From positions 1 to 41,825 of the forward strand of contig JABCYQ010000024.1 in the NCBI GenBank assembly GCA_013290125.1: a DNA stretch of 41,825 nucleotides. The letters run 5' to 3'. How positions within the stretch are numbered: position 1 is the first letter of the stretch; every line of letters begins with the position of its first letter. Positions 11,141-41,825 of this stretch are shown one piece after another. A model generated the notes under the pieces. That model was not told the origin of the DNA and did not search any database. It saw nothing but the letters and a program-made list of their open reading frames with translations. Source of the DNA: Vulcanimicrobiota bacterium (GTDB lineage Bacteria; Vulcanimicrobiota; Vulcanimicrobiia; Eremiobacterales; Eremiobacteraceae). The translations under genes and the position numbers were made by a program.

Positions 11141-11204
11141 GAAGGGGCCGACTTCATGTCGGCCCGGGTTACGTACGCGGGGCCGACATGAAGTCGGCCC
11201 CTTC
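11141..11204. repeat. Family A hairpin, inverted pair
   Basis: Arms 11141-11165 and 11180-11204 are perfect 25-bp inverted repeats around a 14-base loop, with the TTCAT centre variant (CCGACTTCATGTCGG). The pair sits between the divergent rnj and GntR transcription units, 28 bases upstream of the operon's -35 box, so here it cannot simply be a terminator of a convergent gene. Confidence 0.9.
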
Positions 11205-11231
11205 GGTCGTCCCTTCGGAGAAGCAAAATCG

Positions 11232-11260
11232 TTGACAGGCCGCCTAAAGGACATTATAAT
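11232..11260 (+). promoter_or_regulatory. Perfect consensus sigma-70-type promoter of the GntR-efflux operon
   Basis: TTGACA (11232-11237), a 17-base spacer and TATAAT (11255-11260) match the housekeeping consensus at all 12 positions. The GntR start GTG is 49 bases after the -10 box. Such a strong promoter normally needs a repressor, which fits the operator immediately downstream. Confidence 0.9.
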
Positions 11261-11264
11261 GCAG

Positions 11265-11286
11265 TTGTCCTAAACCACTAGGACAA
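11265..11286. promoter_or_regulatory. Palindromic operator, probably for the GntR regulator
   Basis: TTGTCCTA-N6-TAGGACAA is a perfect 8-bp inverted repeat starting 5 bases after the -10 box, at or just after the expected transcription start. A further GGACA half-site lies at 11249-11253, within the spacer. Position and symmetry suit a dimeric YtrA-type repressor that blocks its own promoter. Confidence 0.75.
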
Positions 11287-11308
11287 TGAGACAGGATAGG
11301 AACATGTA

Positions 11309-11695
11309 GTGCTCTTCCACCTGGATTCGGCAAGCGCCATCCCGGTCTACGTCCAGCTCCGCGAACAGGTGCTGCACGCGATCTCGCGCGGTTCGTTGCG
11401 CATCGGCGACCAATTGCCAACCGTCCGCGAAGTCGCTGTCGCCCTTGCGATCAATCCCAACACGGTCAACCACGCCTACGCCGCGCTCGAGCGCGAGGGC
11501 GTGCTCGTCAGCAAGCGCGGCCGCGGCACGTTCATCGCGGGTGGCGGCCGCCCCGAGGACGACGCCGCACGGATCACCCGGCTGAACGACATCGCGCGCC
11601 GCGCACTCGGGGAGACCCGAGCTTTCGGTTTCGCACCTAAGGAACTCATCGACGCTGTGGCGCGCATCGCGCGCGAAGACCACGGAGGAGAATGA
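11309..11695 (+). CDS. GntR-family transcriptional regulator, YtrA subfamily
   Basis: A 128-residue DNA-binding protein. The winged helix-turn-helix occupies residues ~8-76, with IPVYVQLREQ, the recognition stretch LPTVREVAVALAINPNTVNHAYAALE and the wing GRGTFI. Only ~50 residues follow, the short dimerisation tail that defines the YtrA subgroup and leaves no room for a metabolite-binding domain. The start is GTG, preceded by AGGATAGGA. YtrA-type regulators usually repress linked ABC transporter genes and respond to envelope-acting compounds. Here it is the first gene of a ten-gene operon ending in an ABC exporter and lies behind a palindromic operator, so autorepression is likely. Its stop overlaps the next start by 4 bases (ATGA). 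Confidence 0.93.
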   Translation: MLFHLDSASAIPVYVQLREQVLHAISRGSLRIGDQLPTVREVAVALAINPNTVNHAYAALEREGVLVSKRGRGTFIAGGGRPEDDAARITRLNDIARRALGETRAFGFAPKELIDAVARIAREDHGGE

Positions 11696-12690
11696 CGGAG
11701 ATGCCAATCATCACGAGTTCGCCGGCTCCCTCGAAGGACGGGTCCGGTCCGTCCGGGGCCGTGGCGCAAGGAACCGCTTCAATCCACTTCGGCAATCCGG
11801 TTTCGTGGCTTTTGGCCGGCATCATCACGCTTGCCGGCGTGATCTGGACCGCGACGGTTAGCAGCCCCACGTACGTCGTAGCCGCGCTGATCGTCTCAGT
11901 CTTGCTTCTCGTGACGCTGCAGATCGCCACAGTCTGGGAGCGCGTGGTCGTTTTGCGCTTCGGCCACTTCCGCATGCTGGCCGGCCCCGGCGTGTTCTTC
12001 CTTATACCAGCGGTCGACACGATCGCGGCGTGGATCGATCAGCGCGTGCAGACCAGCACGTTCACAGCCGAAGAGACGCTTACCAAGGATACCGTACCGG
12101 TCGACGTTGACGCGGTGCTTTTCTGGGTGGCTTGGGATGCGAAGAAAGCAGCGCTCGAGGTGGCCTCGTACCGCGATGCCATCGGTTGGGCGGCCCAGAC
12201 CGCGCTGCGCGACATCATCGGAACCACGAACCTCTCGGACCTCCTCAGCAATAGGCAGGCCGTCGACGACAAGCTCCAGCACACCATCGACGCGCGAACC
12301 ACGCCGTGGGGGATCACGGTGCAATCGGTCGAGATCCGCGATATCAAAATCCCAGACAACCTCCAGGATGCCATGTCCCGACAGGCCCAGGCGGAGCGCG
12401 AGCGCGAAGCACGCGTCATCCTCGGGGACGCCGAGCGGCAGATCGCGGCCTCCTTCATGGAAGCGGCGAAACAATACGAAGGCAACAACGTGGCCCTGCA
12501 CCTGCGGGCTATGAACATGCTCTACGAAGGCTTGAAAGAGCGAGGGGCGATGATCATCGTGCCGAGCACGGCAGTTGAAACGATGGGTCTGGGTGCGATT
12601 ACCGGGTTGTCGGCATTGAGCGGAGCGCTGCCAGGAATAGCAGCAAACCCGACCACGCCGCCTGGCCCAGCTTCAGGAGAAAATGGATGA
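11692..12690 (+). CDS. Slipin/stomatin-like SPFH-domain membrane protein
   Basis: A 332-residue protein. After a Ser/Pro-rich cytoplasmic head, two closely spaced hydrophobic stretches (~37-58 and ~62-82) form a membrane hairpin. The SPFH band-7 domain follows (~84-270), with VVLRFGHFR, GPGVFFLIPAVDTI, RVQTSTFTAEETLTKDTVPV and the slipin signature SVEIRDIKIPDNLQDAMSRQAQAERE. The helical region runs to ~290 and the tail is Gly/Pro-rich. Slipins scaffold membrane microdomains and often pair with NfeD, which is absent here. GGAGGAGA precedes the ATG, which overlaps the gntR stop. Its place second in a regulator-exporter operon suggests membrane organisation or repair during the same stress. Confidence 0.92.
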   Translation: MTEMPIITSSPAPSKDGSGPSGAVAQGTASIHFGNPVSWLLAGIITLAGVIWTATVSSPTYVVAALIVSVLLLVTLQIATVWERVVVLRFGHFRMLAGPGVFFLIPAVDTIAAWIDQRVQTSTFTAEETLTKDTVPVDVDAVLFWVAWDAKKAALEVASYRDAIGWAAQTALRDIIGTTNLSDLLSNRQAVDDKLQHTIDARTTPWGITVQSVEIRDIKIPDNLQDAMSRQAQAEREREARVILGDAERQIAASFMEAAKQYEGNNVALHLRAMNMLYEGLKERGAMIIVPSTAVETMGLGAITGLSALSGALPGIAANPTTPPGPASGENG

Positions 12691-13400
12691 TCGCAGCAGT
12701 TTTCCTTGCCGCAGCAGTGGCGGCCGCCGCCGCGCCGCCCGACGGCACATATACGTACGACATCGAAACCGGCGGACAAGTTTCGTCAGCCACGGTCACG
12801 ATCAAACGCGACGCCGCAGGCCTGCACGTGGACGAAACCACTGCCATCGCGTCAAAGACCGCCACCGCGACGCTCGTTCTCGATCCCACGACGCTCACGC
12901 CGATCTCGTACGTCGCGGCTTATAATCCGGGCTCGTCAAACCCAAGTTCCGTCGCGATCGCATTCAACGGTCAAGGCGCGTCGGAGACTGTCGACGGGCA
13001 GTCGGGTCAACCGATCGGTCTCGCACCGCTCGTCGGCGCGCCGAAGATGCTCGTACTCGATGGCGCACTGCTCGCGGGTTTTGTCGTGTTGCCGGCGATC
13101 GTGTCGAGCTCATCCGACAGCAGCATGACCGCGATCGTCGCCGCCAATGGCACCGCGTATCCGATCGTGATCGACCGCAAGTTGAAGGCGGCGCATCCGA
13201 CAACCGTGCCGGCGGGCGACACGTCAGTCTCTGTGATCACGCCGACCGCGTTCACGATCTGGTACGACCCTCGAACGTTCGTCATGGACGAGCTCGACGT
13301 GCCGCTGCAAGGCGTCACCGAGACGCTCCGTAAGCACACAGCCGCAGCACCGGTCATTCCGGATCGCGCGGCGCTCGCCATAGATGTGAGGACTAGATGA
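12687..13400 (+). CDS. Exported hypothetical protein (beta-rich)
   Basis: A 237-residue protein with a clear Sec signal peptide (MIAAVFLAAAVAAAAAPPDG, cleavage expected near residue 16). The mature part is beta-strand-rich, beginning GTYTYDIETGGQVSSATVTIKR and ending with a WYDP...MDELDVP stretch. That pattern resembles periplasmic proteins that read a membrane-associated ligand (DUF3108-like), but I cannot assign a family. It overlaps both neighbours by 4 bases (ATGA), with AGGAG upstream, so it is an integral operon member and probably the periplasmic accessory of the efflux/envelope system. Confidence 0.7.
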   Translation: MIAAVFLAAAVAAAAAPPDGTYTYDIETGGQVSSATVTIKRDAAGLHVDETTAIASKTATATLVLDPTTLTPISYVAAYNPGSSNPSSVAIAFNGQGASETVDGQSGQPIGLAPLVGAPKMLVLDGALLAGFVVLPAIVSSSSDSSMTAIVAANGTAYPIVIDRKLKAAHPTTVPAGDTSVSVITPTAFTIWYDPRTFVMDELDVPLQGVTETLRKHTAAAPVIPDRAALAIDVRTR

Positions 13401-14134
13401 CGATCGATACTAGCGGACCCGCGACGCCGCCCGTTTACGTACCGGCCGAGAAGCCAAACGGCTTAGCGACGTATTTCGGCGTCCTCTTCTCGCCGGGCGA
13501 AGCGTTTGCGACGCTTGCCCGCACGCCGATGTGGGGCTGGGCAGCTATCATCGGCATGTTGCTCGTCGTCGCCGCCTCGACTATCTCTTTGCCCGAGATC
13601 ATGAAGATCAGCCAAATCGCTCAGGCGCAAGCGATCAGCCAGATGTCTGCGGATCAGCAGGCGCAGGCGCATCAAAACATCGCCGCTTTCGCCGGAGTCG
13701 CGAGAGTGTTCATCATCGTTTTCGCGTTCATCGGTCCGTGGGTCGGATGGCTCCTCGCCGCGGTGGTATATCTCATCGGCGCGTCCGCCTCGAAGGCCGA
13801 CGTAAATTTCGGCCGCGCCTGGACGCTAGCCGTAAACGCCTTCTTGGTCTTCTTCCTCGGGCAACTCGTGAACGCGGTGATCCTGGCGACGCGCGGCCCG
13901 GATTCGATCGCTTCGGCGGCCGATGTGTATGCGATTCCATCGCTCGCCATGTTCACGCACGCGCCGAAACTCGCCGCTGCGCTGTTCGCGTTCAATCCGA
14001 TCAATCTTTGGTACTACGCGGTCATCGCGATCGGGTTGCAGATAGTGATGCGCATGAAGCCGACTGCCGCTTGGATCACGGTCGCCGTGTATGCGTTGAT
14101 CGGCGCCGGCTTCGGCGCGGCACTTGCGCGATAG
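13397..14134 (+). CDS. Yip1-domain integral membrane protein
   Basis: A 245-residue membrane protein. The N-terminal motif YFGVLFSPGEAFATLARTP matches bacterial Yip1 proteins, and five hydrophobic segments follow (about residues 47-66, 100-135, 147-162, 190-210 and 215-243). A Gln/Ala-rich soluble loop (about 70-95) lies between the first two. Bacterial Yip1 proteins are poorly characterised and often occur next to ABC exporters and MacA-like adaptors. The start overlaps the previous stop by 4 bases. The gap to the TolC gene is 17 bases. Confidence 0.85.
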   Translation: MTIDTSGPATPPVYVPAEKPNGLATYFGVLFSPGEAFATLARTPMWGWAAIIGMLLVVAASTISLPEIMKISQIAQAQAISQMSADQQAQAHQNIAAFAGVARVFIIVFAFIGPWVGWLLAAVVYLIGASASKADVNFGRAWTLAVNAFLVFFLGQLVNAVILATRGPDSIASAADVYAIPSLAMFTHAPKLAAALFAFNPINLWYYAVIAIGLQIVMRMKPTAAWITVAVYALIGAGFGAALAR

Positions 14135-14151
14135 CAGATAGTAGACGATAG

Positions 14152-15519
14152 ATGTTCGTGACCTTGCTCGCCGCCGCCGTCGCCGCAGCGATCGCGGCAT
14201 CGCCGGCGCCTGTCGCGCAGGCGCAAGCGCAGCCGATGACGCTGGATCAGGCGATATCGTTTGCGATGTCGCACGACGCGACGGTGTTGGCGGCTCGCTC
14301 GGCCTACGCCGCGGCGGGCGCGCAACTCGCCGCCAATCGCGCGGCCGGTCTATTGAACGTCGACGGCCAGGCGCAGTCGATCTTGAACCGGCAGAGCTCG
14401 AGCAATGCGGGTGCCTTCGCGCAGTTCGGCCTGTCGCCCAGCCCGAATTTCTCCCAGAACACGACGCAGCTCACCGCGTCGCAGAACGTCTTCGACCTCA
14501 CCACGTCACTCCAGGCCAAAGAGGCCCAGCGTGCATACGACGCGGCTAGCCGCGACCTTCGGCGTGCCAAATCACAAGCCACGCTCGACATCATGACGTC
14601 GTTCTACGGCTTGGCCGAGGACGCGCAGCTGGTCACGCTGTCGTTAGCGGATCTAAAATATCAACAGGCGCTCGTCCAGATCGCGCAGATCAACTACCAG
14701 ACGGGCAAAGTCGCCGGCATCGATGTCTTGAAAGCGCGCATACAATCCACGACCAGCCAAGAGCACGCGTCGTCGTCTGAAGCCGACCTGGAAGATGCTC
14801 GCCAAAATCTGGCGCAGCAGATCGGCGCGCCGGCGGATCAGACATTCGCCTTGCCGGACTCGATACCGGCGCCTGCGCCGCCGGCGGGCGATCAACCCAC
14901 GTTGACCGCATTGGCGCTGCGAAATCGACCGGATTTGCTCGCGGCGTCCGATGCGTTCGATGAAGCGCTCATCGTCCGATCGCTCGTGGACGCATCGGAT
15001 CGGCCGATCGTGAACTTGACGGGCGGTTGGGGCAACCAGGTCTCTCCCACCAGCAATGCCGCGACGCTGGCCGCATGCAACAATCCGAGCCATCCGCTCG
15101 GCGTGCCGTGCGGACTCGGTTCGTCACACTTCTACAGCGTCTCGCTGACGTCCACGTGGACGCTGCCGCTGCTCGACTGGGGCGCGAAGCACGCGGCGCG
15201 CCAGAGCGCCGAACTTGCGGCGGACGAGAAGCGCGCTGCGTACGAATCCGCGCGGCGGCAGGCCGCGATCGATGTCGACCAAGCTTTTCGACGACTCGGC
15301 GTCAACAGGCAGAACCTCGATCTCGCGACTGCGAACGAACAGCTCGCAAAACGCACGGCGGATGTCTCGCAAGTCCAATATCGCACGGGTCTTATCAGCC
15401 AGATCGACGTGACGTCGGCCGAGCAGACGTATCTCCAGGTCGCCAAAGATCTGCTCGACGCGCAAGTCGGTTACGTGCTGTCCGTCGCGAAGCTCAAACT
15501 AGCGGTTGGGGATTTATGA
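14152..15519 (+). CDS. TolC-family outer-membrane efflux protein
   Basis: A 455-residue exit duct for a tripartite exporter. It has a signal peptide (~1-25, ending AQAQAQ) and two OEP repeats (~29-235 and ~245-455) with the long amphipathic helices of the family (SLQAKEAQRAYDAASRDL, NYQTGKVAGIDVLKA, YRTGLISQIDVTSAEQTYL). The second repeat contains a short insertion with two Cys (AACNNPSHPLGVPCGLG). The sequence before the ATG lacks a clear Shine-Dalgarno site. It is directly followed by the adaptor gene, giving the classic duct-adaptor-pump order. Confidence 0.95.
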   Translation: MFVTLLAAAVAAAIAASPAPVAQAQAQPMTLDQAISFAMSHDATVLAARSAYAAAGAQLAANRAAGLLNVDGQAQSILNRQSSSNAGAFAQFGLSPSPNFSQNTTQLTASQNVFDLTTSLQAKEAQRAYDAASRDLRRAKSQATLDIMTSFYGLAEDAQLVTLSLADLKYQQALVQIAQINYQTGKVAGIDVLKARIQSTTSQEHASSSEADLEDARQNLAQQIGAPADQTFALPDSIPAPAPPAGDQPTLTALALRNRPDLLAASDAFDEALIVRSLVDASDRPIVNLTGGWGNQVSPTSNAATLAACNNPSHPLGVPCGLGSSHFYSVSLTSTWTLPLLDWGAKHAARQSAELAADEKRAAYESARRQAAIDVDQAFRRLGVNRQNLDLATANEQLAKRTADVSQVQYRTGLISQIDVTSAEQTYLQVAKDLLDAQVGYVLSVAKLKLAVGDL

Positions 15520-15537: not shown

Positions 15538-17103
15538 TTGCGGAATAGACCCAAGTGGCTCATACCTGCCGTTGTCGCGGCAGGTGTCCTGCTGCTCGTG
15601 ATCGTCGGCACGGTCTCGCACCATGGCAGCGGCGGCGTGGAGGTCACCACCATCGTCGTCTCGCCGGGGAACATGGTGGTGAAGCTGCCCGAAAACGGCG
15701 TCGTGAATCTGCCGCAGACCGCGACGATCGGTGCGCAAAGCGCGGGGACAGTCGTGCAGATCGTGGCACATGAAGGCCAACGCGTCTCGAAAGGGTCGCT
15801 GCTCATGCTGCTCGACGACCGCCAAGCGGCCGCGAAAGTCGACGCGGATCGCGCGCAAGTCGCGCAGGCGCAGGCGACGCTCGACACGGCGCAGCAGGCT
15901 GCCGAGACGGCGGGAGATACCAGCGTCCAGACTGTCGCCAGCGCGGAGCAGACGCTTCTCCAGGCGCAAGCTCGGCTGCAAGCCGACACCAACAGCAAAC
16001 GAGAAGGTCAGTTGTCGGGCGCGGTAGCCGGCAGCGCCGGCCTGGGCGTCAGTGGCGAATCGGAGCTGATCCAGCAGCAGCAACTGCTGCAGGCCGCAAC
16101 TACGAACCTCGAAACTGCGCGCGAGACCTACGCTTCCGACCAAGCCCTATACAAGATCGATGCCGTATCGCGGCAAGTGCTCGACCGCGATCGCGTCGCG
16201 TACGAACAAGCGCAGACCGCCGCGACCGCCGCGCAGCAGCAATACGACCTCGTCAAGCGCCAACTTTCCGACAACGCCGCACAATTCGAGAGCACGATCG
16301 AAGCCGATCGGCAAGCGGTTGCAAGCGCCGAAGCGGGCGTGCGCCAGGCACGCGTGCAGGCACGCGACGACAAAACGATTGGCGTCCGTTCGGGCCAAGC
16401 CGGGCTCGACTCGGCGAACGCGCAGCTGGCGATCGATCAGGCCGAACTTGACGCGACCAGAGTGCGCGCGCCGTTCGACGGCGTCGTGCAGTCGCTCGGC
16501 ACCGTGCAGTCATCGCTCGGCACCGGCTTGGTTCCATTGGCTGTCGGCGATACGGTGCAGCCGGCGCAGACGCTTTTCACTTTCGTTGGCAGCGGGCCGA
16601 TGGTCGTAAAAGCGCAAGTGGACGAACAGGACATCATCAACGTGAAACTCGGCCAGCACGCATTCATCACCGGTGAAGACTTTCCAGGGCAGACGCTCAC
16701 CGGAACCGTGACGCGCATCGCGCCGGTGGTGGTAGCGCAAAGCCAAGCCGGCAACGCCGCGAAAAACGTAGAGACGACGATTGCGCTCGGCCGATCCTTC
16801 CCATTTCTGCGCGATGGCATGTCGTGCGACGTGGACATCGTCACGGGCAAAGCCTCGAATGCGCTCACGGTGCCGCAAGGCGCGGTCGTCGACGATGGCT
16901 CCAAGCACTATGTCTTCGTCATCAAGGCGGGCACGGCGCATAAGGTGCGCGTGACCGAAGGGATCAAGAACGACACCGACGTCGTGATCGTGCGCGGGCT
17001 GTCGAAGGGCGACGTGGTTGCGACGACCGGCGTGAAGGATATCAAGGACGGCGCGAAAGTGAACGCCACTGCCGCCACCCCAGCGCCGACCTCGAGCAGC
17101 TGA
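15538..17103 (+). CDS. Periplasmic adaptor (MacA/HlyD family)
   Basis: Membrane-fusion protein of 521 residues linking the MacB-type pump to the TolC channel. The N-terminus has one membrane anchor (WLIPAVVAAGVLLLVIVGTV). The first half of the lipoyl/barrel-sandwich domain is near 60-100 (GAQSAGTVVQIVAHEGQRVS) and the second near 305-320 (RVRAPFDGVVQSLG). Between them is an unusually long Gln/Ala-rich coiled coil of ~200 residues, longer than in MacA, which would make a long helical hairpin. The beta-barrel and membrane-proximal domains follow. The start is TTG, chosen because GGGAG lies 6 bases upstream and the frame is closed by TAA at 15520. The tail is Ala/Thr/Pro/Ser-rich. Confidence 0.93.
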   Translation: MRNRPKWLIPAVVAAGVLLLVIVGTVSHHGSGGVEVTTIVVSPGNMVVKLPENGVVNLPQTATIGAQSAGTVVQIVAHEGQRVSKGSLLMLLDDRQAAAKVDADRAQVAQAQATLDTAQQAAETAGDTSVQTVASAEQTLLQAQARLQADTNSKREGQLSGAVAGSAGLGVSGESELIQQQQLLQAATTNLETARETYASDQALYKIDAVSRQVLDRDRVAYEQAQTAATAAQQQYDLVKRQLSDNAAQFESTIEADRQAVASAEAGVRQARVQARDDKTIGVRSGQAGLDSANAQLAIDQAELDATRVRAPFDGVVQSLGTVQSSLGTGLVPLAVGDTVQPAQTLFTFVGSGPMVVKAQVDEQDIINVKLGQHAFITGEDFPGQTLTGTVTRIAPVVVAQSQAGNAAKNVETTIALGRSFPFLRDGMSCDVDIVTGKASNALTVPQGAVVDDGSKHYVFVIKAGTAHKVRVTEGIKNDTDVVIVRGLSKGDVVATTGVKDIKDGAKVNATAATPAPTSSS

Positions 17104-17564
17104 TGTCGTCGACCGAACTCGTCGCGGGCGTCCTCGAGGTCATCGCGTTCGGATGTGTCGCGGCGATCATCGCGGTGACGGTTGCGGCGTACCCGGGATT
17201 GCCGGAGCGCGTCCCCGTGCACTACGGCTTGACCGGCCAGGCCAATAGCTGGGGGCCGCGCGGCTTCGTCTTCCTGATACCGGCGATCTCGGTCGTCTTC
17301 TTCGTCATGGCGACGTATTTCAATCCGATATTCGGCTTCGTACTGGAAGACAAACACGGCGTCGTGCTTCATCCGCTGATCCCGATGCCATGCGGTGTGC
17401 TCTCCGTCGTGCTGGTCCTCTTCACTGCTCTGCAGATCGCGATGCTTGAAAGCGCGCGCACAGGCTCACCGTTGAACATGCGCATCGTGTTGCCCGCTGT
17501 CGCTGTCGCGGTCTTATTCGTCGCCGGGTCCGCGATCTCGGTCGCGTTTCCGTTCGGTCGATGA
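17103..17564 (+). CDS. DUF1648-domain membrane protein
   Basis: A 153-residue membrane protein with four hydrophobic segments. The diagnostic DUF1648 motif is at ~30-52: YPGLPERVPVHYGLTGQANSWG. This domain is known from SdpI-type immunity proteins against the peptide toxin SdpC and from loci controlled by YtrA-like GntR regulators. The SdpI C-terminal domain is missing, so this is a stand-alone DUF1648 protein. Its start overlaps the adaptor stop by one base, and its stop overlaps the next start by 4 bases. Sitting between adaptor and permease, it may protect against or sense the exported compound; that is inference. Confidence 0.88.
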   Translation: MSSTELVAGVLEVIAFGCVAAIIAVTVAAYPGLPERVPVHYGLTGQANSWGPRGFVFLIPAISVVFFVMATYFNPIFGFVLEDKHGVVLHPLIPMPCGVLSVVLVLFTALQIAMLESARTGSPLNMRIVLPAVAVAVLFVAGSAISVAFPFGR

Positions 17565-18743
17565 AGCTTTTCGAATTCTTTATCGCCGCCCTGGACACGC
17601 TGTGGGCCAACCGCATGCGGACCGGCTTGACCATGGTCGGCATCGTGATCGGCACGTCGGCGGTGATCTGCATCTTCGCGATCGGGCAGAGCGCCTCGTC
17701 TTCCATCGGCGGTCTGCTCCAACTCACCGGTGACCGCGGCACGATCATATTCCCCGACACGAGCACCACGCAACTTGCAGAACCCTTTACCTGGGCCGAT
17801 ATCCAGAAGATCCGCGACAGCTGCTCGCGCTGCCTGAAAGTCTTTCCGTCGTACAACAACGTGTACTTCATGGAGATCGCGCATAAGGAGGCTCCGGTCC
17901 GTCTCGTGTCGCGGACGGACTACATCAAGGACTCGTTGCCGATGGACGCGGGGCGGCACTTCGACGCAGACGACATCGACGGAGCGCGCGCGGTCTGTCT
18001 TCTCACGTTTGAAACAGCGCAAAAGGTTTTTCCGCAGGGCCATGCGCTCGGAGGCGTGATCCGCGTCGCCGACCACCGGTTCACGGTCATCGGGGTCTTC
18101 GCGCCGATCAGTCTCGGTTTGCTCGGCGCTCAACAAGGCGACGTCGTGTTCATCCCGTATACGACCTACCATCATCTTCCGGACAGCCAATTCACGTATA
18201 TCCAAGTCTATCCGATTCCCGGCGCAACCTCCGCGCAGACCACGGACGAAGTGGAAAGCATTTTGCAACGCTCGCACGGCGCGCGCGCGAAGTACAGCGG
18301 CGTGGATTCCTCGCAGCAGGAGTCGGCGTTCTTGAACATCATCGGCTTCGTCTCGCTGGCGATCTCGATGATCGGAGGCATAGCGCTGCTCGTGGGCGGC
18401 ATCGGCGTGATGAATATGATGCTCGTCTCGGTCAACGAGCGCACGCGCGAGATCGGCATACGCAAGGCGATCGGCGCTTCGACGCGCGACATCCTCGTCC
18501 AATTCCTCATCGAGGCCGCTGCGATCACGTTGTTCGGCGGCGCGATCGGCACGCTGCTCGGCGGTCTGGCCGGCGCGGGCGCGAGTACGCTGCTCATCAC
18601 CAAACTTTCGGGCAGCGCGGGAACCGTGGCATGGTTGCCGATCATCTCGGTCTCGCTGGGCTTCTCCATTCTCGTCGGCGTGTTCTTCGGCACATATCCG
18701 GCTTTGCGAGCATCGCGGCTATCGCCGATCGATTGTCTGCGTC

Positions 18744-18751
<8 letters not shown>
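17561..18751 (+). CDS. MacB-type ABC exporter permease, first subunit
   Basis: A 396-residue permease without a fused ATPase. Helix 1 (MRTGLTMVGIVIGTSAVICIFAIG, ~20-43) is followed by a large periplasmic MacB_PCD domain (~45-260) with one CxxC-like pair (CSRC, ~88-91). The three C-terminal helices form the FtsX domain, with the conserved GIGVMNMMLVSVNERTREIGIRKAIGAS (~285-312, given here as family hallmark) coupling loop. MacB-type pumps are mechanotransducers that expel periplasmic substrates through TolC. This gene and the next encode paralogous half-pumps, implying a heterodimer. The stop overlaps the next start by 8 bases. Confidence 0.94.
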
Positions 18752-19944
<1,193 letters not shown>

Positions 19945-19952
<8 letters not shown>

Positions 19953-20637
19953 AGTCATCCGGATCAAGGGCATGACGCGGACCTACACGATAGGCGACAT
20001 CGAGGTGCTCGCGCTGCGCGGAATCGATCTCAAGGTTGAACGTGGCGAATACGTGGCGGTGATGGGACCGTCCGGGTCCGGCAAGTCCACGCTGATGAAT
20101 CTGATCGGCTGCCTGGACAAGCCGACGTCGGGAACGTACGAACTTGACGGTGTCGACGTCTCCGCGCTCGACGACACCGCGCTTGCGGCCGTGCGCCTGC
20201 AAAAGCTCGGCTTCATCTTCCAGGGATTCAATCTGCTCGCACGCACCTCGGCGGTGCGCAACGTCGCACTTCCGCTCTTCTACGCCGGCGATCCGAATCG
20301 CGAGAAAAAGGCGATCGCCGCGCTCGAAGAGGTCGGGCTCGGCGACCGCATCTCGCATCGTCCAAACGAGCTTTCCGGCGGCCAGCAGCAGCGTGTCGCG
20401 ATTGCGCGCGCGCTCGTGAACGATCCGGCGCTGATTCTAGCGGACGAACCGACCGGCAATCTTGACTCGACCACAGCCGAGGGGATCATGGCGGTGTTCG
20501 AGCGGCTCAACGGCGGCGGCCGCACCGTGATCATGGTGACGCACGATGAAAACGTCGCGCACCATGCGAAGCGGATCGTGCGATTGCTCGACGGCGTCGT
20601 CGTAAGCGACGACTCGGTGACCAACCGCACCGTGTGA
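19945..20637 (+). CDS. ABC exporter ATPase (MacB/LolD type)
   Basis: A 230-residue nucleotide-binding subunit for the two permeases. Walker [10 protein letters not shown] is at 41-49, the Q-loop at [10 protein letters not shown] (~90-99), the signature LSGGQQQR at 143-150, Walker B and D-loop [13 protein letters not shown] at 163-175, and the switch His at ~200 (MVTHD). Length and motifs match the LolD/MacB/FtsE group. It is the last gene of the GntR operon. A paired hairpin repeat follows the stop by 16 bases and may end the transcript. Confidence 0.96.
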
Positions 20638-30535: not shown

Positions 30536-30655
30536 AGGGGCCGACTTTATTTGGAGGGGCCGACTTCATGTCGGCCCATGCCGTCTCTGAAGGGGCCGAC
30601 TTTATGTCGGCCCTTAGTGCGCGGCCTCTCTGAAGGGGCCGACGCCAGTCGGCCC
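30532..30655. repeat. Cluster of four family A hairpin elements
   Basis: Four copies in the same orientation: a left half only (30532-30550), GGAGGGGC-type full copy (30553-30576), full copy with TTTAT centre (30587-30613), and full copy with the short GCCA centre (30630-30655). Spacers are 2 to 16 bases and unrelated. Here the copies are direct rather than inverted. The first one provides the hspR stop codon. Different centre variants side by side show that the cluster did not arise by simple tandem duplication of one copy. Confidence 0.88.
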
Positions 30656-35092: not shown

Positions 35093-35125
35093 CTGAAGAG
35101 GCCGACTTCATGTCGGCCCCTCTTC
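35093..35125. repeat. Family A hairpin, single
   Basis: A single copy with TTCAT centre whose flanks have mutated to GAAGAGG and CCTCTTC, keeping near-complete pairing over the outer stem. It follows the acyl-CoA dehydrogenase stop by 12 bases and may act as its terminator. Confidence 0.8.
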
Positions 35126-35182: not shown

Positions 35183-35563
35183 TCAATCCCGGATCACGGC
35201 GTGAGGGTCGTTCGGGGCGGACCAAACGCCGCTCGGTACGAAATAAGAGTTGGCAAGGTAGAAATAGCTGTCCCTAAGACGGCCCGGCGCTATACGTCGT
35301 GTCGACCGTTGGGATATTCCACACGCCGTTCGAGACGATGAAACGGTTAAGTGGGTTTTGATTTTCTGCGCTGAGCTTGCTTGCAGCGCTACCTCATAGA
35401 CGACATCATTTCCGCTCGGGCTAGCGCCAACTCGTTCGAAGCTCTTGATGCGCACCGAGCAACTCTCTGCCCGGCTTTCGGTAGAGAAACAACCTACGCT
35501 GGCGACGATTGCAAGTAGCGCCGCCGCCCCTGAGCGAACAATAACAACTCGACGTGATTTCAT
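35183..35563 (-). pseudogene. Small secreted protein gene, probably frame-damaged
   Basis: An open frame of 126 codons with a good signal peptide (MKSRRVVIVRSGAAALLAIVASVGC, possible lipobox-like end) and a normal-looking mature start (CSVRIKSFERVGASPSGNDVVYEVALQASS). From about codon 67 to 97 the reading becomes Arg/Ser-rich and unnatural, while another frame of the same strand reads ENQNPLNRFIVSNGVWNIP and TVDTTYSAGPS. After that the first frame again looks natural (YFYLANSYFVPSGVWSAPN). Two compensating single-base indels, the first near an AAAA run, would explain this. The function is unknown; a read error is the alternative. Confidence 0.5.
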
Positions 35564-35638
35564 ACGACGCCTCTAAGAAAGCTGACGCATGCAAATTCTC
35601 GCACGAGAGTCTCAAGTTCCTTGGGCCGACTAAGGGCG

Positions 35639-35761
35639 AAGAAGTAAGTCGCTTCGGGGTGGTGCACCACGAGCGCTACCGTGGACTGCTCCGACACAAC
35701 TTGGAACGCCTCGGTTATCGTCATCCCGATCGCGTCGCACGGCATGATCGCGAAGAATTTC
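35639..35761 (-). pseudogene. Left-over 3' end of a second metH
   Basis: This 123-base segment aligns without gaps to the end of the intact metH (36877-36999), with 104 identical bases by my count. Only about four of the ~41 encoded residues differ (DAIGMTITEAFQVVSEQ against DVIGMTITEAFQLVPEQ), so most changes are synonymous. Similarity stops abruptly at KFFAIMPCD on the N-terminal side. At the other end the frame runs on without the metH stop. It cannot work alone. The RES-Xre pair lies between it and the intact gene. Confidence 0.88.
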
Positions 35762-35840: not shown

Positions 35841-36320
35841 CTAGGACGTCATCAGGAACGATATAAGCCGCGGGTCCCACCGAAAGGGAGTTCCAGGGCC
35901 GCTCGTGTCGATGCGGGCAAAATCGGGGTGTTTGGGATTCAACACCACGTTTCGGTCTTGAGGCACGACGGCCGATGGAACGTCAAGCACCGCGGTGCGG
36001 TTCTCAGAAATCCACGTATCTCCGAGTGCGAGGCAAGCCGGATGATTGAGTTCCTGCCAATCGTTCGGCAAGTCTGAGAGGCTGATGCGCAGCTGCGCGA
36101 TATCGATCGGAATAACTACCTGAATGGCCAGTTCATCAAGCGGTATGGCGTCAGGCGTGCCGGCATGAACCAAGATTTCCAGCGCGGCTGTGGAGAGGCT
36201 GTTGGACGCATACACCGCGTAGCGACCCGGGCTGTTCCACCGGCCGCCATATCTGAAGGCGCCGGCTCCGGAAAAGGCTGTCGCACGATCGACCGCACGC
36301 ACCATTCTCCATGAGACCAC
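35841..36320 (-). CDS. RES-domain toxin
   Basis: A 159-residue toxin of the RES family (ParT/MbcT), which destroys or transfers ADP-ribose from NAD+. The conserved stretch GGRWNSPG with Arg27 (24-31), Tyr37 in AVYASNSLSTAALEIL with Glu48, and VPSAVVPQDRNVVLNPKHPDF with Ser116 contain the three active-site residues for which the family is named, so it appears intact. The start used is GTG one base after the antitoxin stop, with ATG at 36305 as alternative. It forms a two-gene operon with the antitoxin upstream. Confidence 0.93.
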   Translation of the reverse strand: MVSWRMVRAVDRATAFSGAGAFRYGGRWNSPGRYAVYASNSLSTAALEILVHAGTPDAIPLDELAIQVVIPIDIAQLRISLSDLPNDWQELNHPACLALGDTWISENRTAVLDVPSAVVPQDRNVVLNPKHPDFARIDTSGPGTPFRWDPRLISFLMTS

Positions 36321-36321
36321 C

Positions 36322-36747
36322 TCAGCCGACTACGCCTTCGCGCAAGCGCCCGAGAACCGTTTCAACTCGCTTGGCTCCGGCATCTGTGTCAAGTTCTTCG
36401 ATTGGCCGCGCGCCTTGCAGCGCCCGATTCGGCACGTTCATCCATGCCAGCGCCTGTGGCCGCGTTCCTATGGACTCCTCGGCAAAATCGATTACACGCG
36501 CTATCCTGACGAGACGATCCGATTGATCCGGCTGCAGCCGCATTGCGGCGCGGCGTTCAAGCGTGCGGCGCGACACGCCGGCGACCCGTAGCAGCGTGTC
36601 GAAAGGAACGCTGGGTGAAGTGGATTCGATGAACTTGCAAGCGTTCTTGGTGGGCAGACCAGCGCGTACGACATCGGAGAGGGAGCGCCCCGATCCAAGT
36701 CTCAGCTGGAATTGCTCTAAGATTCTGTCTTCGGATATAGCACGCAT
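36322..36747 (-). CDS. Xre/MbcA-type antitoxin (DUF2384, ParS)
   Basis: A 141-residue antitoxin. The N-terminal HTH-like part (~20-60) is followed by the toxin-binding DUF2384 domain (~65-141) with LQPDQSDRLVRIARVIDFAEESIGT, PQALAWMNVPNRALQGARPIE and DTDAGAKRVETVLGRLREG, the standard signature. It neutralises the RES toxin by covering its NAD+ site and represses the operon. AGGTGA lies just before the ATG, and a perfect palindrome overlaps the -10 box. Confidence 0.94.
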   Translation of the reverse strand: MRAISEDRILEQFQLRLGSGRSLSDVVRAGLPTKNACKFIESTSPSVPFDTLLRVAGVSRRTLERRAAMRLQPDQSDRLVRIARVIDFAEESIGTRPQALAWMNVPNRALQGARPIEELDTDAGAKRVETVLGRLREGVVG

Positions 36748-36756
36748 GTCGTCACC

Positions 36757-36776
36757 TGTCGCTAATTATAGCGACA
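36757..36776. promoter_or_regulatory. Palindromic operator of the toxin-antitoxin operon
   Basis: TGTCGCTA-N4-TAGCGACA is a perfect 8-bp inverted repeat that contains the whole -10 box. Binding of the Xre antitoxin dimer here would directly exclude RNA polymerase. Confidence 0.82.
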
Positions 36777-36793
36777 CCTGCCAAAGTTGTCAA
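36765..36793 (-). promoter_or_regulatory. Perfect consensus promoter of the toxin-antitoxin operon
   Basis: On the minus strand TTGACA (36793-36788), 17 bases, TATAAT (36770-36765): all 12 consensus bases. The start codon follows the -10 by 17 bases, so the leader is very short. It lies 37 bases past the metH stop. Confidence 0.9.
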
Positions 36794-36830: not shown

Positions 36831-39800
36831 CTAGGGAAGGGACGCGGTCAGCACGCTCTCGCCGGCGCCGAGGGCCGAGAAGTAGGTCGCCTCGGGGTGG
36901 TGCACCACGAGCGCGACGGTGGATTGTTCCGGTACGAGCTGGAACGCCTCGGTGATCGTCATGCCAATAACGTCGCAGGGCATGATCGCGAAGAACTTCC
37001 GGTGTTCCTCGATGTCCGGGCAAGCCGGATAGCCCCACGAATAGCGTTTACCCTGACCCGCAGGTATACCCAATTCCCGGCGGATGTGGCGATGCACGAG
37101 TTCCGCCAAACCCTCTGCTGCTTCAACCGCAAGCCCATGGACGTAGAGGGCTTCCGCATATTCACCAGCCTGTTGGAGGCGCGTGTAACGCGCTGTCGCC
37201 TCGGCCCCCACCGTTACAGCTTGCAGCGCGACCACATCGCGCCGCTCTTCGTCCACACTCGCGAAGTAGTCCGAGATGCAGAGGCGCGGCATCGCCGGCT
37301 GGCGCGGGAACGCGAAACGCGTCAGCTCGATCGCCGGGTCGCTTGGCTGGAATAGGACTAGGTCGTCGCCATCCGAGGCGGCCGGGAAGAATCCAAAGAC
37401 CGCTTGCGGCGCAAGCCAGCCGGTCTCGATCGCTTCCGTCTTCATGCGTTCGAAGCGCGGCCGGAATTCTTCGTGCAGCAGCGAACGCCACGCGTCGCCC
37501 TTCGCGCTCTTCGCGCCCCATTGCAGGCGATACAGCGAACGGACGTCGAGCGTACGGAACACCTCGGGAACTTTAATATCGCGCAGTTCGCGCGCACCCC
37601 AAAACGGTGGTTTGGGAATCGGCGCATCTTTCGCGACGGCCGAACGCGCCGGTACGTCGGCAGCCGCGGGAACTGTGCGGGCCGCACGCCGCGCGAGTGC
37701 GTCGCGCGCTTCGGTCTCCACCCGCGTGCGCAAACCTTCGCGGCGCGACGGATCCTGCAACGTGTCCATTAGCGCAAGGCCTTCGAAAGCGTCCTTCGCG
37801 TAGAACACGCCGGGCCTGAAGTACGTTTCGGGGTCCACGAAGCCTATGCGTTGCACGTACGCGCGATTGATGGCCGCGCCGCCGACTATCACCGGAAATT
37901 CATGTCCTTCGCGATGCAGTTCTTGCAGGCAGAGCGGCATCTGCTTGGATGTGGAGACCAAGAGAGCGGATAGACCGATCGCGTCCGCCTTGACCTCCAC
38001 CGCTTTCTCGATGATCGCGTGCAGTGGCACTTGCTTGCCGAGATCGTGCACCGTGTAGCCGTTGTTCGAAAGGATCGTGTTCACGAGGTTCTTCCCGATG
38101 TCGTGCACGTCGCCGAAGACCGTCGCCAACACCACGATGCCTTTTGTATAGCTGTCGTTTTTCTCGAGGAATTGTTCGAGGTAGGAGACCGCCTTCTTCA
38201 TCACCTCTGCCGACTGCAGAACGAACGGCAGGATGAGTTCGCCAGCGCCGAATCGATCGCCGACGTCTTTCATCGCTCCGAGCAGACAGCCGTTGAGCAG
38301 ATCCACCGCCGACTGATCCCGCAGCGCCTCATCGAGGAGCGCTTCGATGCCCTCCTTCTTGCGATGCAGAATGCGGCGATGGATGCGCTCGGTCACCGGA
38401 AGCTCTGCGTCGTCGGCTTCAGCTTGGCCGTCCGTGGCAGTCGCCGCGCTCACGCCTTCGTAGCGCGAGATCACCCGCTGCAGCGCATCCGGCCGCCGGT
38501 TGAAGATCAGATCTTCTGCCAGCTCGCGTTCGTCGCCCATGATGAGCGCGTAGGGTGTGATGTCCTTCGGATTGACGATCGCGAGATCGAGTCCAGCCGC
38601 CACGCAGTGGTAGAGGAAGACGCTGTTGATGACGGCGCGCGCGGCGGGATTCAACCCAAACGAGATGTTGGAGACTCCCAAGACCGTCAGCACGCCGGGC
38701 AGCGCGGTCTTGACCGCGCGGATCCCTTCGATCGTGTTCGCACCCGCATCGATATACTCTGGCTGACCGGTCGCGAGCGTAAACGTCAGCACGTCGAAGA
38801 TGAGGCGGCCGCGTGGCAATCCGTATTCGCCACAACAGATCGCCTCGATCATCTGTGCCACCTCTACCTTGGCGGCGGGCGTCTTGGCCATGCCGACCGA
38901 TTTTTCGATCGTGAGCGCAACGACGGCCGCGCCGTGTTCGAGCGCGAGCGGCAAGATGTCGTCGATGCGCGAGCGCCCGTTCTCGAGGTTGACGGAGTTG
39001 ATGATCGCGCGGCCCGGATTGGTCTCGAGCGCGCGGCGCACGACTTTGGCTTCGGTGCTGTCGATCATGAGCGGCGCTTCGACCGATAGTTCGAGCCGTT
39101 TGACGATCTCGGCCATGGTCGTGTCTTCGCCCTCACGCTCGGTGAGCGCCATGCAGACGTCGAGCGCGTGCGCGCCGCCGCTCACCTGTTCGCGCGCGAC
39201 TTCCACGAGCGCGTCGTAGTCATCGGCGAGGATCAGGCGTTTGACTTTGCGGCTGCCTTGCGCGTTCAACCGCTCGCCGACGATGAGCGGACGAGGTTCT
39301 TGCGCGAGCGGCAACGCGGTCATCGCGCTCGCAACCTCTTGATCCGGCTTCGGCTTGGGGACTCGCGGCGTCTTGCCTTTTGCGGCGATGGCGAGCAGCC
39401 GTATGTGCTCCGGCCCGGAACCGCAACAGCCGCCGATGATGTTGACACCGTAGTCGGCGACGAACGATTCTAGATGGTCGCGCATGCCCTCTGGCTCAAG
39501 CGGATAGATCGCAAGGCCGCCTTCGTTGCGCGGGATGCCCGCGTTCGGTATGCACGAGACGTATTTCGACGAATGCTGCGCCAGATAGCGCATCGCGTCG
39601 CGCATATACTCGGGCCCTGTGCTGCAGTTCAGACCGGCGACGTCGCACGGCAGCGCCTCGAGGATTGCACAGACCGCGGCGATGTCGGTGCCGAGGAGCA
39701 TGCGCCCTTGCGTGTCGAGCGAGACCGAAGCGATGATCGCGGCCCGTGCGCCGCCGGTCGCATCGGCATGCGCCTGCGCCGCTCGGGAGCAGGCGGTGAT

Positions 39801-40334
39801 GGCCGCGCGCGTCTCCAAGATGTCCTGCTGCGTCTCGACGATCAGCCCGTCCACGCCGCCTTCGAGCAGCGCTTCGGCTTGTTCGCGGTAGATCTCGAAC
39901 AGATCGGCGTACGACAACCGGGAGAGTGCCGGATCGTTGGCCGATGGCAGCATGCCGGTCGGGCCGAGCGATCCCACGACGAAGCGCGGCCGCGATGGAT
40001 CGCGCTTCGTGAACTCATCGGCCACTTCGCGGGCGATGCGCGCCGACGCGATGTTGTGTTCGCGCGTCAGATCGCCGAGCCCGTACTCGTCCAGCTTCAG
40101 GCGCGATGCCTGAAACGTGTTCGTCTCGAGCGCGTCGGCGCCGGCCTCTAGAAACGCGCGGTGCAGCCCGCTGATCACGTCTGGCTTCGTCAGGCTGAGA
40201 TGATCGTTGCAGCCTTCTTTGCCGCCGAAATCCGCGGCAGTAAGGTTCATCGCTTGCAGCGTGGCGCCCATCGAGCCGTCGAAGACGACGACGCGGTGCG
40301 TGAGGCCCTCTAAGAGCGGATTACGACGCGGCAT
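36831..40334 (-). CDS. metH: Cobalamin-dependent methionine synthase
   Basis: Transfers a methyl group from 5-methyltetrahydrofolate via cobalamin to homocysteine; 1167 residues (E. coli MetH 1227). Domains in order: homocysteine domain (~1-320; Zn cysteines in GLNCSTG and GGCCGSG), folate domain (~350-610; VGERLNAQGS), B12 cap (~640-720), B12 domain with GDVHDIGKN and the cobalt-ligating His744, and the SAM-binding reactivation domain (~900-1167; RYSWGYPACPD fits RxxxGY). The ATG at 40334 has GAGG 6-7 bases upstream and overlaps the acyl-CoA synthetase end by 14 bases. The final ~45 codons exist a second time at 35639-35761. In E. coli the last residues continue longer; here the protein ends SVLTASLP. 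Confidence 0.97.
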   Translation of the reverse strand: MPRRNPLLEGLTHRVVVFDGSMGATLQAMNLTAADFGGKEGCNDHLSLTKPDVISGLHRAFLEAGADALETNTFQASRLKLDEYGLGDLTREHNIASARIAREVADEFTKRDPSRPRFVVGSLGPTGMLPSANDPALSRLSYADLFEIYREQAEALLEGGVDGLIVETQQDILETRAAITACSRAAQAHADATGGARAAIIASVSLDTQGRMLLGTDIAAVCAILEALPCDVAGLNCSTGPEYMRDAMRYLAQHSSKYVSCIPNAGIPRNEGGLAIYPLEPEGMRDHLESFVADYGVNIIGGCCGSGPEHIRLLAIAAKGKTPRVPKPKPDQEVASAMTALPLAQEPRPLIVGERLNAQGSRKVKRLILADDYDALVEVAREQVSGGAHALDVCMALTEREGEDTTMAEIVKRLELSVEAPLMIDSTEAKVVRRALETNPGRAIINSVNLENGRSRIDDILPLALEHGAAVVALTIEKSVGMAKTPAAKVEVAQMIEAICCGEYGLPRGRLIFDVLTFTLATGQPEYIDAGANTIEGIRAVKTALPGVLTVLGVSNISFGLNPAARAVINSVFLYHCVAAGLDLAIVNPKDITPYALIMGDERELAEDLIFNRRPDALQRVISRYEGVSAATATDGQAEADDAELPVTERIHRRILHRKKEGIEALLDEALRDQSAVDLLNGCLLGAMKDVGDRFGAGELILPFVLQSAEVMKKAVSYLEQFLEKNDSYTKGIVVLATVFGDVHDIGKNLVNTILSNNGYTVHDLGKQVPLHAIIEKAVEVKADAIGLSALLVSTSKQMPLCLQELHREGHEFPVIVGGAAINRAYVQRIGFVDPETYFRPGVFYAKDAFEGLALMDTLQDPSRREGLRTRVETEARDALARRAARTVPAAADVPARSAVAKDAPIPKPPFWGARELRDIKVPEVFRTLDVRSLYRLQWGAKSAKGDAWRSLLHEEFRPRFERMKTEAIETGWLAPQAVFGFFPAASDGDDLVLFQPSDPAIELTRFAFPRQPAMPRLCISDYFASVDEERRDVVALQAVTVGAEATARYTRLQQAGEYAEALYVHGLAVEAAEGLAELVHRHIRRELGIPAGQGKRYSWGYPACPDIEEHRKFFAIMPCDVIGMTITEAFQLVPEQSTVALVVHHPEATYFSALGAGESVLTASLP

Positions 40335-41825
40335 CGATCGCCTCGAGCGACGCTGGATTTTCGAGCGCCGAGAGATCGCCGAGCGCATCGCTCTTCAAGT
40401 AGCGAGCGCGCGCGACGCGGCGCATCATCTTGCCGTTGCGCGTGTGGGGCAGATCGCTTACGAATTTCACTGCTTTGGGCGCAAGCGCTTTGCCCAAACT
40501 CCGCGCGCACGCGCCGACGAGTGCGGCCCGCAATGCTTCGTCTGCCTTCGCGCCCGGCCGCAGAACGACCAGACAAACGACGACTTCGCCTTTCACCGGA
40601 TCGGGCACCGCCACTGCCGCTGCTTCCTTCACCGCTGCGTGCGCGACGAGGGCGCTCTCGTACTCGGCCGGTCCGACGCGCTTGCCCGCGACATTGATCG
40701 TGTCATCCGAGCGGCCGTGGATGAACCAGTAGCCGTGATCGTCGACGCTGCACCAGTCGCCGTGCAACCAGACGCCTGGGATCCGCGACCAGTACGTCTG
40801 TAGATAGCGTTGATCGTCGTGCCAGAACGACTGGGTCATGCCGGGCCAAGGCTGGCGGATGCACAGTTCGCCGACTTGCCCGCGCAGCGAAACTCCATGC
40901 TCGTCCACGACATCAGCGTCCATACCCGGCACCGGGCCATGAAATGCGCACGGCACGAGCGGCTGCGTGGGAAAGCAGCCCAAGATCCCACCGCTGATCT
41001 CCGTGCCGCCTGAGTAGTTGATGATCGGGCAGCGGTCCGCGCCTACGTGGTGCGCGAACCAGCGGTACGGTTCTGGATTCCATGCTTCGCCGCTGGACGC
41101 GAGAATGCGCAGGCTCGAGAGATCGTGTTTGTGCGGATGTTCGTCGCCGTGTGCCATCAGCGCGCGGATCGCAGTCGGCGCGATGCCGAGATGCGTGACA
41201 CGGTGCCGCGCGACGACTTGCCAGAGACGGTCGGGGCTCGGGTAGTCGGGCGTGCCGTCGAACAGCACGACTGTGGCGCCTAACCCGAGCGCGCCGAGCA
41301 CGAGAAAGGGCCCCATCATCCAGCCCATGTCGGTGAACCAGAGCATGCGATCGCGGGGTTTGACGTCGAAGCAAAGATACTGGTCGATCTGCACCTTGAC
41401 CGGGAAGCCGGCGTGTCCGTGCACCGCGCCCTTGGGTTTGCCGGTGGAGCCGGACGTGTAGAGCAAAAGATATGGATCATCCGCCGCGGTTCGCTCAGCC
41501 TCGATGAAGCTCGGTTGGCCGCTGACGAGCGTCGTCCAATCGTGGATTTTGAAACTGATCGTTCTCTCGCTCGCCATCCCGAAGGGGCCGACGCCAGTCG
41601 GCCCATCTTCGTCGAATACGACGACGTGTTCTATGGTTGAAACTTCGCTTGCTGCCTCGATCGCAGTATCGAGCATGGGAACGGCTTTTCCGCGGCGCGA
41701 TGCCGTGCGCACGGTCAGCAACGCTTTCGCTTCGGCGTCGGCGAGCCGCGCCACGAGCGCCGGTGCGGCATACCCCGAGAACGCCGGCACCGCGATCGCA
41801 CCGATACGGCCAATCGCCAACAGCG
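40321..41825 (-). CDS. Acetyl-CoA synthetase-like acyl-CoA ligase (5' part outside window)
   Basis: AMP-forming ligase, ~501 visible codons, with the N-terminus beyond the window. The ATP loop YTSGSTGKPKG is followed by DMGWMMGP, the acetyl/propionyl-CoA synthetase-like NYSGGTEISGGILGC, HGDWCSVDDHGYWFIHGRSDDTINVAGKRVGP and the catalytic Lys in LPHTRNGKMMRR, so all active-site parts are present. A family A repeat lies in frame about 30 codons before the ATP loop and encodes DGPTGVGPFG in a stretch that is variable between family members. The gene overlaps metH by 14 bases, so both are probably one transcript. Confidence 0.93.
   Translation of the reverse strand, partial: LLAIGRIGAIAVPAFSGYAAPALVARLADAEAKALLTVRTASRRGKAVPMLDTAIEAASEVSTIEHVVVFDEDGPTGVGPFGMASERTISFKIHDWTTLVSGQPSFIEAERTAADDPYLLLYTSGSTGKPKGAVHGHAGFPVKVQIDQYLCFDVKPRDRMLWFTDMGWMMGPFLVLGALGLGATVVLFDGTPDYPSPDRLWQVVARHRVTHLGIAPTAIRALMAHGDEHPHKHDLSSLRILASSGEAWNPEPYRWFAHHVGADRCPIINYSGGTEISGGILGCFPTQPLVPCAFHGPVPGMDADVVDEHGVSLRGQVGELCIRQPWPGMTQSFWHDDQRYLQTYWSRIPGVWLHGDWCSVDDHGYWFIHGRSDDTINVAGKRVGPAEYESALVAHAAVKEAAAVAVPDPVKGEVVVCLVVLRPGAKADEALRAALVGACARSLGKALAPKAVKFVSDLPHTRNGKMMRRVARARYLKSDALGDLSALENPASLEAIDAAS
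41581..41604. repeat. Family A hairpin inside a coding sequence
   Basis: GAAGGGGCCGAC-GCCA-GTCGGCCC (short-centre variant) lies wholly within the acyl-CoA synthetase gene and keeps its reading frame: 24 bases, eight codons, no stop in the frame used. Confidence 0.88.

Follow-up and report, generated by a model that had tools for sequence, protein, structure and literature searches.

A conserved promoter with a predicted operator upstream of a YtrA-type gntR gene in a predicted SPFH-containing operon

Organization of the gntR locus

The window analysed here is the whole 41,825-nt stretch of DNA, and all coordinates count from its first letter. A promoter and a palindrome precede a gntR gene, which opens a series of genes whose ends overlap or are closely spaced as far as the gene for an ABC ATPase:

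11144-11205 (no strand), inverted pair of the genome-wide repeat GGCCGACATGAAGTCGGCC, outside the switch; 219 genome copies
11232-11237 (+), -35 box TTGACA, exact consensus; TTGAC kept in most orthologues
11248-11253 (+), AGGACA in the promoter spacer
11255-11260 (+), -10 box TATAAT, exact consensus
11265-11272 (+), left arm of the predicted operator, TTGTCCTA (palindrome search; column frequencies in orthologues)
11279-11286 (+), right arm of the predicted operator, TAGGACAA (palindrome search; column frequencies in orthologues)
11287-11293 (+), third half-site TGAGACA (in most orthologues TAGGACA), a direct repeat at a distance of 8 bp from the right arm
11293-11301 (+), probable Shine-Dalgarno stretch AGGATAGGA (sequence inspection)
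11309-11695 (+), gntR, YtrA-type regulator, 128 aa, GTG start (Pfam GntR, 2.6e-16; AF2 model; nearest solved structures)
11692-12690 (+), SPFH/Band 7 protein, stomatin/slipin type (PF01145, 9.6e-34; PDB stomatin, 3.5e-38)
12687-13400 (+), probably secreted protein of no Pfam family, related to the N-terminal part of alpha/beta hydrolases from related operons and the trans site (sequence comparison)
13397-14134 (+), Yip1/YknW-like membrane protein (PF04893, 5.9e-13; YknW_fam, 1.4e-22, under that family's cut-off)
14152-15519 (+), TolC-type outer membrane efflux protein (PF02321, 8.1e-37)
15538-17103 (+), MacA/HlyD-type periplasmic adaptor (RND_mfp, 6e-50)
17103-17564 (+), DUF1648 membrane protein (PF07853, 1.2e-15)
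17561-18751 (+), MacB-type permease 1 (MacB_PCD and FtsX)
18744-19952 (+), MacB-type permease 2 (MacB_PCD and FtsX)
19945-20637 (+), ABC ATPase, last gene of the predicted operon (PF00005, 6e-33)

The first-pass annotation had described a consensus promoter followed by a 22-bp palindrome, with a short GntR protein as the first gene, and all of these elements are borne out. Inspection of the sequence places TTGACA-N17-TATAAT at 11232-11260 and the palindrome TTGTCCTA-AACCAC-TAGGACAA at 11265-11286, both with zero mismatches; the palindrome is 22 bp long, ends 22 bp ahead of gntR, and is followed by a 128-aa protein that matches PF00392 (E 2.6e-16). The palindrome is not due to chance. Even with up to three mismatches it is expected 0.01 times per window, this is the sole site with fewer than three mismatches in the 2.9-Mb genome, and when the 75-bp promoter region was shuffled 500 times, arms of at least 8 bp arose in only 4 cases. 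The perfect promoter is similarly rare, with four copies in the whole genome (control 0), two of them inside the window.

The second perfect promoter of the window carries TGTCGCTA-TAAT-TAGCGACA over its -10 box and precedes genes for a 141-aa protein and a RES-domain protein, at 36322-36793 (-) and 35841-36320 (-). This locus (35841-36793) probably encodes an Xre/RES toxin-antitoxin pair that carries an operator of its own. A 61-aa ORF at 35560-35745 (-) resembles the C terminus of the large methionine synthase encoded at 36831-40388 (-); it looks as though insertion of the RES pair had duplicated the end of the methionine synthase gene. Elsewhere in the genome (G000:C22:6217, L075), a perfect promoter lies before a MarR-like gene, and its -10 box is flanked by GTTAACCTCCTAA and TTAGGAGGTTAAC as inverted arms, as judged by eye. 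These two further members of the genome's four perfect promoters sit at likely self-regulated genes with repeats; it is only an impression, from four cases, that perfect promoters are kept here mainly where a tight repressor controls them.

Upstream of the switch, GGCCGACATGAAGTCGGCC occurs at 11146-11164 and 11181-11199, and again in the window at 30558-30576 and 35100-35118. The genome holds 219 copies (108 + 111) with at most one mismatch (control 0), often as facing pairs. The pair is missing upstream of the congeneric gntR in G004.

The regulator has a predicted YtrA-type architecture

The N-terminal GntR winged helix-turn-helix domain (PF00392, 59.5 bits against a cut-off of 27) places the protein in the GntR superfamily. 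In the AF2 model (mean pLDDT 85.6) this domain is followed by two C-terminal helices, 82-105 and 110-125, and it is a C-terminal domain of about 50 residues with only two helices that defines the YtrA subfamily. The nearest solved structures are Lin1836, Lmo2241, an Oenococcus protein and YtrASa; by sequence these are 3neu, 4ham, 3by6 and 6sbs, and by fold the same entries together with 2ek5/2du9, although the relative domain orientation superposes poorly in the fold matches to YtrA-type structures (rmsd mostly 8-13 Å). From sequence and model together, the regulator is predicted to have the architecture of the YtrA subfamily. Membership of the PmtR family (NCBIfam NF047563) is ruled out, as the protein scores 58.2 bits against a curated cut-off of 200.

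The palindrome is conserved and follows the regulator

To survey the class, 117 genomes were searched for the regulator at E <= 1e-23, which yielded 30 with an orthologue and 87 without this gntR. The first-pass annotation had proposed looking for the palindrome before orthologous gntR genes, and it is indeed present just upstream of 29 of these 30, in the form TGT[C/A][C/T]TA-N6-TA[G/A][G/T]ACA with occasional single deviations, so that the absence named there as a refutation was not observed; such conservation counts are not independent because the orthologues are related. The half-sites lie far from the centre, as is characteristic of YtrA-type operators, and in 29/30 orthologues a 20-bp palindrome is bounded by TGT and ACA; about 24 bp is quoted as typical for the palindromic operators of this type (PMC6746942). 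Only L073 lacks the site; it is the most divergent orthologue (45% identity) and has an altered recognition helix, NPTTVHR vs NPNTVNR. A TTGA-type -35 box and TANNNT at N16-18 were recovered in 23/30 orthologues by a strict scan, and the -10 box often falls short of full consensus. It is therefore a strong rather than a perfect promoter that is conserved.

We then scanned the 117 genomes for the site alone, using the pattern TGTCYTANNNNNNTARGACA with its reversed form as a control. This returned 18 exact matches in 17 genomes (reversed control 1), 17 of which immediately precede a gntR orthologue, and no match in any of the 87 class genomes without gntR. All 17 site-bearing genomes are among the 30 with gntR, which has a chance of 1e-12 if genomes are independent, a value that overstates the case because the genomes are related and thus not quite independent. 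The architecture is conserved and the site follows the regulator. The scan returns nearly only gntR upstream regions, which supports the earlier view of this locus as a clean case for predicting the regulator's recognition site.

A rival to the predicted binding by this GntR is that the palindrome is the operator of a different regulator that happens to control the operon. Yet none of the 87 class genomes without gntR has the site, and it is retained at gntR genes without an SPFH neighbor (L080, L094, L096 and L097). Moreover, the arms have the form of YtrA-type sites, and their sequence differs between clades with different recognition helices. We thus consider control by another regulator very unlikely.

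A third half-site and a candidate target in trans

The first-pass annotation had also pointed to an extra half-site within the promoter spacer. The AGGACA in question (11248-11253) is present in the window, but two congeneric genomes lack it in this promoter, as do the other orthologues; it is probably incidental because it is not conserved, even among congeners. A conserved third half-site, absent from that annotation, is instead found 3' of the palindrome, where AGGACA, a repeat of the right arm, matches at five or more of six positions in 21/30 orthologues. Its spacing from the right arm is +8 in 16 of these, +9 in 3 and +10 in 2. Within the window's own genus the third half-site is imperfect, at 4/6 positions. 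A pattern combining an arm with the third site gave 14 matches in the 117 genomes (control 0), all at the promoters considered here. Extra boxes beside GntR-family palindromes are already known (PMC4494728; PMC6746942).

These data also bear on whether the palindrome acts in RNA, as a hairpin controlling mRNA stability or translation. The palindrome sits where the transcript is inferred to begin, and base pairing between its 8-bp arms is feasible. However, the arms show no covariation (score 0.103 vs 0.103 in shuffles), though they pair in 91% of cells, and the fourth pair is broken in 7/27 sequences. Each arm is conserved as a half-site rather than as a pairing partner, and the third copy is conserved in direct orientation, which would be useless for a hairpin. 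A role in RNA is thus extremely unlikely, and we reject it because covariation is lacking.

The 18th match of the site-only scan (G012:C19:68571) lies in front of an alpha/beta hydrolase gene, in the layout GTGACA-N17-TATAAT, TGTCCTAAACGACTAGGACA and a third half-site TAGGACA. Over 547 columns the hydrolase is 42% identical to the product of gene three in a related gntR-SPFH operon (L089), and in its N-terminal part it also matches the window gene at 12687-13400 (30% identity, 3e-17). Given this homology, and a promoter of the same layout, the site looks like a target in trans. It was the only such target in the two pattern scans of the 117 genomes, which were confined to non-degenerate sites because chance matches would otherwise dominate. 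The site accompanies genes of the same group, as would be expected of a real operator.

SPFH proteins are the constant partner of this clade

The SPFH domain encoded after gntR is nearer to stomatin (3.5e-38) and PH stomatin (5.4e-37) than to HflC (2.8e-07), consistent with a stomatin/slipin type. Of the 20 loci examined in the class, 16 have an SPFH gene next to gntR, as do 11 loci from Acidobacteria and Chloroflexi. YtrA regulators are typically tied to ABC transporters (PMC4494728), and ABC genes do occur in the window's family, but the constant partner in the wider clade is SPFH, not ABC. The MacAB-TolC-like pump genes were found, among the loci examined, only in the window's family. Searches of open literature returned no paper that brings YtrA, GntR and SPFH together, and nothing relevant for GntR with stomatin. 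These loci link an uncharacterized clade of YtrA-type regulators with SPFH proteins of the stomatin-like kind, about whose functions in bacteria little is known, and supply a firm, testable predicted operator for this clade.

The SPFH-linked orthologues of Acidobacteria (L032-L045) resemble the window in that gntR is followed by SPFH and the site, here TTGTACTA-N6-TAGTACAA-like, has the same position and geometry. They differ in their arms (TGTACTA vs TGTCCTA here) and in their recognition helix (mostly NANTVAK vs NPNTVN[R/H] here). Arms of the same geometry found outside the class include TGTACTA in these Acidobacteria genes, and TGTATTA/TGTACTA in Streptococcus. Arg40 is constant among the regulators compared; Asn54 accompanies TGTCCTA-type arms, and Ala, Val or Gln at position 54 accompany right arms of the TGTACTA type, a correlation that is only a lead because it is confounded by phylogeny. 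This natural series of site variants allows the recognition-helix residue that sets specificity to be tested. A broader proposal, which we advance tentatively and judge rather doubtful, is that a YtrA-type regulator and a stomatin/slipin together make up a distinct two-gene module that is widespread, occurring in this class as well as in Acidobacteria and Chloroflexi. The class regulator would read the shifted half-site TGTCCTA rather than TGTACTA, tracking residue 54, the signal would be the state of the membrane that houses the SPFH protein, and pumps or hydrolases would have been added by lineage.

Paralogous YtrA-type gntR and ABC genes are directly preceded by genes for peptides of 36-40 aa whose C termini share an invariant F-x-GWGP and, after it, K/R and a hydrophobic residue (G000:C2:142646-142756 (-), L115; L132-L161). 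A profile of these GWGP peptides has matches in 69 of the 117 class genomes, the weaker of which are uncertain; no Pfam family was found among three peptides tested, and a literature search returned nothing relevant. They could be a signal, a RiPP-like precursor or an exported peptide, and the family looks more novel than the gntR switch. The window's genome encodes another GWGP peptide (G000:C5:109852-109965, L142), which directly precedes not gntR but a gene for an ECF-type-like sigma factor, named by eye.

Proposed mechanism

The reading we favor, at a probability of roughly 0.92, is that GntR is a YtrA-subfamily autorepressor. A GntR dimer would bind TTGTCCTA-N6-TAGGACAA, which starts 4 bp downstream of the -10 box and spans the presumed start of transcription near 11267, as placed from the -10 box, and the bound repressor would stop RNA polymerase. 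Autorepression by a block to polymerase is the simplest reading because of this position, and has been demonstrated for YtrASa (PMC6746942) and PmtR (PMC5080381). Beyond the palindrome on its 3' side, the third half-site probably assists the binding of an additional subunit. Once binding is lost, the very strong promoter would fire the whole operon, comprising the regulator, the SPFH protein, the YknW-like protein and the TolC/MacA/MacB-type pump. The suggestion from the first-pass annotation of a strong promoter held by a tight repressor fits this arrangement, in which a consensus promoter is followed by a predicted operator over the inferred start. The inducer may be cell-envelope or membrane stress, a guess by analogy that we make because the B. 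subtilis ytr operon is induced by lipid II cycle inhibitors (PMC12772383) and PmtR by phenol-soluble modulin peptides (PMC5080381).

Some GntR proteins, such as GabR, also activate, and GntR might bind this site as an activator. Yet a protein bound here, past a -10 box of full consensus and on top of the start site, stands in the way of polymerase, and a consensus promoter needs no activator, such that we regard activation as extremely improbable. Overall, the arrangement is genuine and well supported, but belongs to an ordinary type of bacterial on/off switch; what is modestly new is its SPFH partner and its shifted half-site.

Comparison with known systems

YtrA of Bacillus subtilis, the founder of the subfamily, has a main operon with an ABC transporter and governs a second one with a hydrolase among its genes, but it has no SPFH partner and its operon content is otherwise different (PMC12772383, PMC4494728). 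PmtR of Staphylococcus aureus is a short YtrA-type repressor encoded by the first gene of its own operon, with a site over the start (PMC5080381); its footprint (36 bp) spans its own start site (PMC5080381). Its operon, unlike that described here, contains four ABC genes, and PmtR is not an orthologue of this gntR (PMC5080381); the full-length NCBIfam match here (8.1e-16) is far under the family cut-off. YtrASa of Sulfolobus acidocaldarius differs in having an archaeal promoter, a core motif of 14 bp, secondary half-sites to either side and a partner that is another membrane protein rather than SPFH (PMC6746942). It is otherwise alike in being a short GntR of YtrA architecture with a palindrome over the start site, additional half-sites, a very small regulon and membrane-protein targets (PMC6746942). 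In YtrASa, whose operator with extra half-sites covers the start site, autorepression has been shown experimentally (PMC6746942), and the same mode of control is predicted here.
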